DNA of 64,000 nt, from the NCBI GenBank assembly GCA_029266495.1, contig JAQSWS010000049.1:1-64000 (forward strand), written 5' to 3'. The notes beneath the pieces are model-generated. The model was not told where the DNA came from. It made no database searches and saw only the letters and a program-made list of their open reading frames with translations. The first letter of the stretch is position 1. Every line of letters starts with the position of its first letter. The DNA comes from Rariglobus sp. Its GTDB lineage: Bacteria > Verrucomicrobiota > Verrucomicrobiia > Opitutales > Opitutaceae. A program made the translations under genes and the position numbers. Of the stretch, positions 11,833 through 12,597 are shown one piece after another.

Positions 11833-11907
11833 ACCGTGGGGCGGGGCCGGGGATTTTCCGTCTTTTTGATGTGCAGCCACTTCTTGGTTGTCTTCCCCCG
11901 CGACCTC

Positions 11908-11924: not shown

Positions 11925-11948
11925 ACCCACCCTGCAACCTCCTTATTG

Positions 11949-12035
11949 ATGGCCAACTCGTTTCCTTCGTCGGGCGGCAACCGCCCCGGTTATTATCAGC
12001 GTCGTAACAACGACCCTTTCGCTCAAGGAACCTGA
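11949..12035 (+). other. 28-codon leader frame before infC (leader peptide or displaced infC N-terminus)
   Basis: An ATG at 11949 opens a 28-residue frame rich in Gly, Arg and Asn (MANSFPSSGGNRPGYY, then basic residues, ending DPFAQGT). It stops at TGA 12033-12035, two bases before the first IF-3-like codon in the next frame. It looks like the N-terminal extension I expect on verrucomicrobial IF-3. That makes it either the real infC start separated by a frameshift, or a leader peptide. Just upstream, 11937-11945 reads ACCTCCTTA, identical to the 3' tail of 16S rRNA. Confidence 0.6.
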
Positions 12036-12036
12036 A

Positions 12037-12597
12037 ATCCGCGTCATCAGCCCCGAGGGCAAGCAGCTCGGCATCATGCAGACCGAGCGCGCACTGGCAC
12101 TGGCGCAGCAGTTCAATCTCGACCTCGTCGAAATGGCTGCGACCGCCAAGCCGCCGGTCTGCCGCATCATGGATTTCGGCAAATACGTTTACGAGGAGCA
12201 GAAGAAGGCGAGCCACGCCAAGACCACCGCGACCAAGCTCAAGGAAATCGAGTTTACGCCGCGCATCGCCGGCGGCGACTTCCTCACCAAGATCCGTCAT
12301 GCCGAGGAATTCCTCGATCACGGCAACAAGGTGAAGCTCCGCCTGAAATTCCGCGGGCGCGAGATGGCTCACACCGAGATCGGTTTTGAGGTGATGAACA
12401 AGGCCCTCGCCGAACTTGAAGGCATGGGCCATCCCGACTCTTCGCCAAAGCTGATGGGCAAGCAGATCAACGTCATGTTGACGCCGCTCCCCACCAACAA
12501 GCGCAAGCGCAAATACACCCTCGATGCCGACGAACAGGCGATCGATGACACCGGTTCCGACGAAGGGGCCGAAGAGGCGCACGACGGCAAAGCCTGA
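12037..12597 (+). CDS. infC: translation initiation factor IF-3
   Basis: Binds the 30S subunit, proofreads the initiator tRNA-start codon pair and blocks 50S joining. The N-domain is recognisable from IRVISPEGKQLGIMQ onward, then KPPVCRIMDFGKYVYEEQKK and the KLKEIEFTPRI hinge region. The C-domain is followed by an acidic tail. The domain begins before the first in-frame ATG (12076). The only good fit is the ATC at 12037, which sits 7 nt after an AAGGA Shine-Dalgarno at 12026-12030. Non-AUG starts (AUU, AUC, AUA) are known for infC. The alternative is a frame loss relative to the leader frame at 11949. Confidence 0.85.
   Translation: MRVISPEGKQLGIMQTERALALAQQFNLDLVEMAATAKPPVCRIMDFGKYVYEEQKKASHAKTTATKLKEIEFTPRIAGGDFLTKIRHAEEFLDHGNKVKLRLKFRGREMAHTEIGFEVMNKALAELEGMGHPDSSPKLMGKQINVMLTPLPTNKRKRKYTLDADEQAIDDTGSDEGAEEAHDGKA

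Follow-up and report, generated by a model that had tools for sequence, protein, structure and literature searches.

The +1 frameshift of prfB follows a rule in which roughly 3 nt separate a Shine-Dalgarno-like stretch from a downstream slippery codon adjoining UGA C. Genes for IF3 (infC) that initiate at AUU or AUC under autocontrol by their product include those of E. coli, which has ATT, and Streptomyces, which has ATC, according to PMC5472188; the isolated C-domain of IF3 performs the functions of the factor in vitro, with 30S binding about 100-fold weaker, according to PMC4611024. The infC locus described here lies in a window of 64,000 nt (the whole stretch of DNA analysed) on contig C3 of a 4.89-Mb assembly of 172 contigs with a completeness of 99.75%, and the nearest named relatives are Opitutaceae. 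The locus resembles the autocontrolled infC genes in having an AUC at its first remaining residue with AAGGA ahead of it, and resembles prfB in having an in-frame TGA after a Shine-Dalgarno-like stretch, with the downstream frame at +1. It differs from the former in that its relatives start upstream at an AUG without a Shine-Dalgarno sequence and read the AUC (ATC) as an internal isoleucine codon, and from the latter in that its site is unconserved, with the wrong spacing and the wrong slip codon. Compared with infC of other Opitutaceae (TIGR00168, PF05198 and PF00707), it is the same gene without 23 nt and with its frame broken. Judged from sequence comparison, the break is probably an assembly error in an ordinary infC, of which the true start would be ATG 11949, as in relatives.

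The main part of the gene is a frame on the forward strand at 12037-12597 (186 codons plus TGA) that matches PF05198 (E 3.3e-25), PF00707 (E 1.1e-28) and TIGR00168 (166.3 bits; cut-off 60); both the N and C domains of IF3 score above curated cut-offs, but a continuous frame from start to stop is lacking. No ATG, GTG or TTG precedes ATG 12076-12078 in this frame, although the 87 nt ahead of ATC 12037 are open as well. Further upstream on the same strand, ATG 11949-11951 opens a 28-codon frame, MANSFPSSGGNRPGYYQRRNNDPFAQGT, that is terminated by TGA 12033-12035. Both observations had been made in a first-pass annotation of this DNA and are borne out by the letters. The conserved IF3 domain actually starts ahead of IRVISPEG: an intact congener is matched by TIGR00168 from position 6, the window, when read from ATC 12037, from position 16. 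The window lacks positions 6-15, the first ten or so conserved positions.

In an alignment of 13 members of the genus, the window has a single gap, exactly 23 nt long, between 12022 and 12023; the 23 nt are present in all 12 congeners, none of which has the frame break. Placements as far as 12025/12026 are equivalent if TCA stood at the beginning of the lost DNA, as it does in two congeners (L007 and L009). The congener protein begins MANSFPSSGGNRPGYYQRRNNDPFAHIRRNSRIKEPEIRVISPEGK, with which the window agrees up to NDPFA and again, in another frame, from KEPE. The segment lost between them, HIRRNxRI, is part of the conserved start of IF3, and solved structures align from there. The 5' part of infC in the window (11949-12035) accordingly consists of 25 codons homologous to those of congeners, including MANSFPSSGGNRPGYYQRRNNDPFA, which is identical to L002, and then of out-of-frame codons as far as the TGA, a stop only through frame loss; the IF3 frame reads these bases as part of CCT GAA (Pro-Glu). 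In the proposed error, the assembled sequence would have dropped 23 nt after codon 25, breaking the frame and running it into this TGA, and the raw reads would be expected to hold the missing bases. A loss relative to homologs had been foreseen at about 17 nt; loss and remainder (2 mod 3) agree with the alignment, the size does not. A relative with a continuous frame from the ATG had been named as grounds for refutation, and at the level of congeners the outcome speaks against a special mechanism.

The wider family provides the same picture. Among 56 genomes searched, including the one that holds the window, infC was found in 55, of which 54 are relatives; 29 of these contributed loci and 20 further genomes were fetched (G040, G041, G046, G047 and G055 were left out). 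With a second collection of 80 named loci, many from genomes already in the first, 110 loci were compared. An in-frame ATG sits 75-160 nt before the domain in 108 of the 110, that is, in all 108 relative loci that have upstream DNA (with many duplicates between the two collections), and also in all 20 further genomes. Only the window and L076, whose contig ends 8 nt upstream, have no such ATG, and the absence of an upstream start in the window therefore exceeds chance. AUU, AUC or AUA is the first codon in none of these relatives, ATG being found in 108/108 loci and 20/20 genomes.

The first-pass annotation had offered AUC 12037 as one possible infC start, with AAGGA at Shine-Dalgarno spacing. 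The AAGGA lies at 12025-12029 (+), one base before the position given there, and its distance of 7 nt from ATC 12037 is as described. The intact gene uses these bases as Lys-Glu codons (AAG GAA). An ATC or ATT is present at the AUC position in 13/13 genus members and AAGGA at its place in only 8/13, being absent from 5 of the 12 congeners. As an evolved start the AUC was rejected, the AAGGA and the ATC/ATT being inherited internal codons of a gene that starts upstream in relatives.

A different reading is that the genome has truly, and recently, lost the 23 nt and that translation of IF3 begins at a codon placed there by chance, AUC 12037 or ATG 12076. It is unlikely but has several points in its favour. 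The AAGGA is correctly spaced from the AUC, and the leader's TGA ends one base before it, where terminating ribosomes could restart; if the deletion is real, the AUC could still serve as a rescue start. Non-AUG starts of infC have precedents (E. coli uses ATT, Streptomyces ATC; PMC5472188), and a shortened IF3 may suffice, given the in vitro activity of the isolated C-domain (PMC4611024). Both the N-terminal extension and the earliest conserved residues would be missing from the product, and initiation at ATG 12076, the earliest canonical in-frame start, would also cost the protein the first strands of its N domain. A TCA repeat in ancestors like L007 and L009 could also have permitted slippage. 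Against a real deletion, the AAGGA and AUC are older than the gap and not conserved as a start signal, the gene shows no decay on either side of the gap, and the essential gene prfB carries an out-of-frame gap in the same assembly.

The absence of decay was evident both in the 25 codons that precede the gap and in the IF3 domain. Domain identity within the genus is 90-95%, and the N-terminal extension is the same up to codon 25. Over 170 codons from ATC 12037, dN/dS between the window and the 12 congeners is 0.024-0.112, in a range like that of the congener pairs (median 0.065; 66 pairs). Only 5 of the 170 codons are private to the window, and the one nonsynonymous change among them falls at a position where congeners differ as well. 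Such undisturbed purifying selection indicates that normal constraint on infC either persists or ended only very recently. This bears on the notion that infC is a true pseudogene, with IF3 supplied by another gene or dispensable: the broken frame fits it, but the undecayed domain does not, nor does the lack of a second infC, and it is highly improbable. Neither a second copy nor the missing piece was found elsewhere in the assembly, and a genome search at E up to 10 returned infC only as its two pieces, both at this locus.

Programmed frameshifting had been suggested as well: a +1 shift of the prfB kind at ACC-U-GAA would fuse leader and IF3. An SD-like AAGGA followed by a stop, and a +1 reading that regains the IF3 frame, are what such a site would offer. 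However, of the genomes compared only this one has the frame break (0/12 congeners) and the missing DNA accounts for it, and a fusion of leader and IF3 would still be without the conserved residues. The genome's own prfB has a classic site, GGAGG TTT CTT TGA C, whereas in infC no more than one base separates the AAGGA from ACC TGA A (A-ACC overlap). ACC pairs poorly after slipping. The infC site thus has neither the spacing nor the slip codon of a prfB-type site, and a programmed shift was rejected as almost certainly not the explanation.

If the infC break arose in assembly, further unexplained breaks are expected, in genes whose combined loss a cell could not bear, and two were found. The prfB gene, which encodes the essential factor RF2 (identity backed by solved RF2 structures, E 6.5e-107), has an out-of-frame gap just 3' of its +1 frameshift site on contig C101 (L131:941-990). 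Measured between one and the same pair of residues, ten congeners (G001-G006, G008, G009, G011 and G012) have 59 nt more than the window's genome (G000) and G010 has 62 nt more, which makes 11 of the 11 congeners with both pieces on one contig (G007 is cut by a contig end). A helicase gene on contig C13 (L145:4849-5037), with domains PF13307 (Helicase_C_2) and PF06733 (DEAD_2), has an out-of-frame gap of 95 nt when compared with G002, and the place is spanned by one continuous match in nine other congeners. All three gaps are out of frame. An assembly error is favoured because it is implausible that a cell would live with both IF3 and RF2 broken, and the finding that prfB is broken too raises its probability.

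Several considerations weigh on the other side. Short gaps, here of 23-95 nt, are less common than some other assembly errors. The 3-base TCA repeat, if the lost DNA was like that of L007 and L009 (2/12 congeners), fits a slippage deletion. The base rate of breaks is also low: among 82 of 1,316 G002 ORFs with a whole-gene homolog in 1.08 Mb of G000 (55 in a smaller first run), four were flagged by frame and six by stop. The frame flags comprise infC and the helicase, both true; L210/L143, a false alarm at a two-gene junction that varies among congeners; and L128/L248, which was also flagged by stop and left uninspected. The stop flags L122/L249 and L206/L145 were read as false alarms, the stops preceding an in-frame ATG. 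True breaks found thus number two among the 82 genes, infC included, with L128/L248 and the stop-flagged L128/L148 uninspected and prfB outside the 82. A reverse control that compared 69 of 811 G000 ORFs (46 in a smaller first run) gave two frame flags, the same helicase and L149/L129 (uninspected), and six stop flags (uninspected). Such breaks are rare in this assembly, not everywhere.

The leader of infC is distinctive in its own right. An element directly 5' of the ATG, ACCTCCTTATTG (11937-11948, +), is conserved in the genus, and its first nine nucleotides, ACCTCCTTA (11937-11945), presumably equal the 3' tail of 16S rRNA. A search for 16S rRNA returned nothing in G000 or in four relatives, two of them single-contig genomes. 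The element together with the ATG, ACCTCCTTATTGATG (11937-11951, 15 nt), has exactly one copy in each of the 13 genus genomes, and comparison of positions across all 13 places every copy at infC. None of 80 unique 25-nt infC leaders contains GGAG, GAGG, AGGA or AAGG, compared with 82/440 (G000) and 123/797 (G002) mechanical ORF starts, and the leaders are poor in G (0.114 versus 0.248 and 0.221 at those starts). As a family-wide signal the motif resembling the anti-Shine-Dalgarno sequence was rejected: CCTCC occurs in 8 of 70 unique leaders outside the genus and is not enriched (36/440 in G000 and 47/797 in G002). CCTCCTT occurs in 4/70 of these leaders, all four from few clades, versus 1/440 and 4/797, and in the part of G002 that was compared, ACCTCCTTA itself stands ahead of an ATG at a single gene besides infC (L185).

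Pairing of ACCTCCTTA with the AAGGA, raised in the first-pass annotation, found no support in the folding of 11925-12060. The minimum-energy fold, in which the two do not pair with each other, is unremarkable (z -0.60), 51 of 200 shuffles folding as well. The motif is conserved in 13/13 genus genomes, with or without a downstream AAGGA (8/13), which indicates that it does not serve that pairing. A bolder idea is that ACCUCCUUA, as an exact copy of the 16S rRNA 3' tail directly before the AUG, replaces the Shine-Dalgarno sequence and acts as a control element that imitates or competes with the rRNA tail on which initiation acts. With the following UUGAUG it occurs once per genome in the genus, at infC only; the idea is nonetheless very unlikely. 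The motif could equally have a promoter or leader role.

About 55-60 nt before the infC ATG, the stretch TTGTCTTC (11870-11900) is invariant in the window and the 12 congeners and is perhaps part of a promoter, but a sigma-70 scan found no promoter there. At the beginning of the window, an Rfam match to 5_ureB_sRNA (136-467 on the reverse strand; 79 bits, cut-off 40) runs antisense to the first part of a gene for a urease alpha subunit (8-1738), and coding conservation may explain the match. A literature search for infC with a frameshift in metagenome-assembled genomes found nothing, from which no novelty is claimed.

The frame breaks in infC, prfB and the helicase gene of this assembly should not be taken as biology without the reads, and a candidate for an exotic start or a frameshift is dropped from consideration. 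Among the Opitutaceae relatives, infC starts at an AUG without a Shine-Dalgarno sequence, and the AUU/AUC control of E. coli is not used at this gene. The infC leader element conserved in the genus merits a study of its own.
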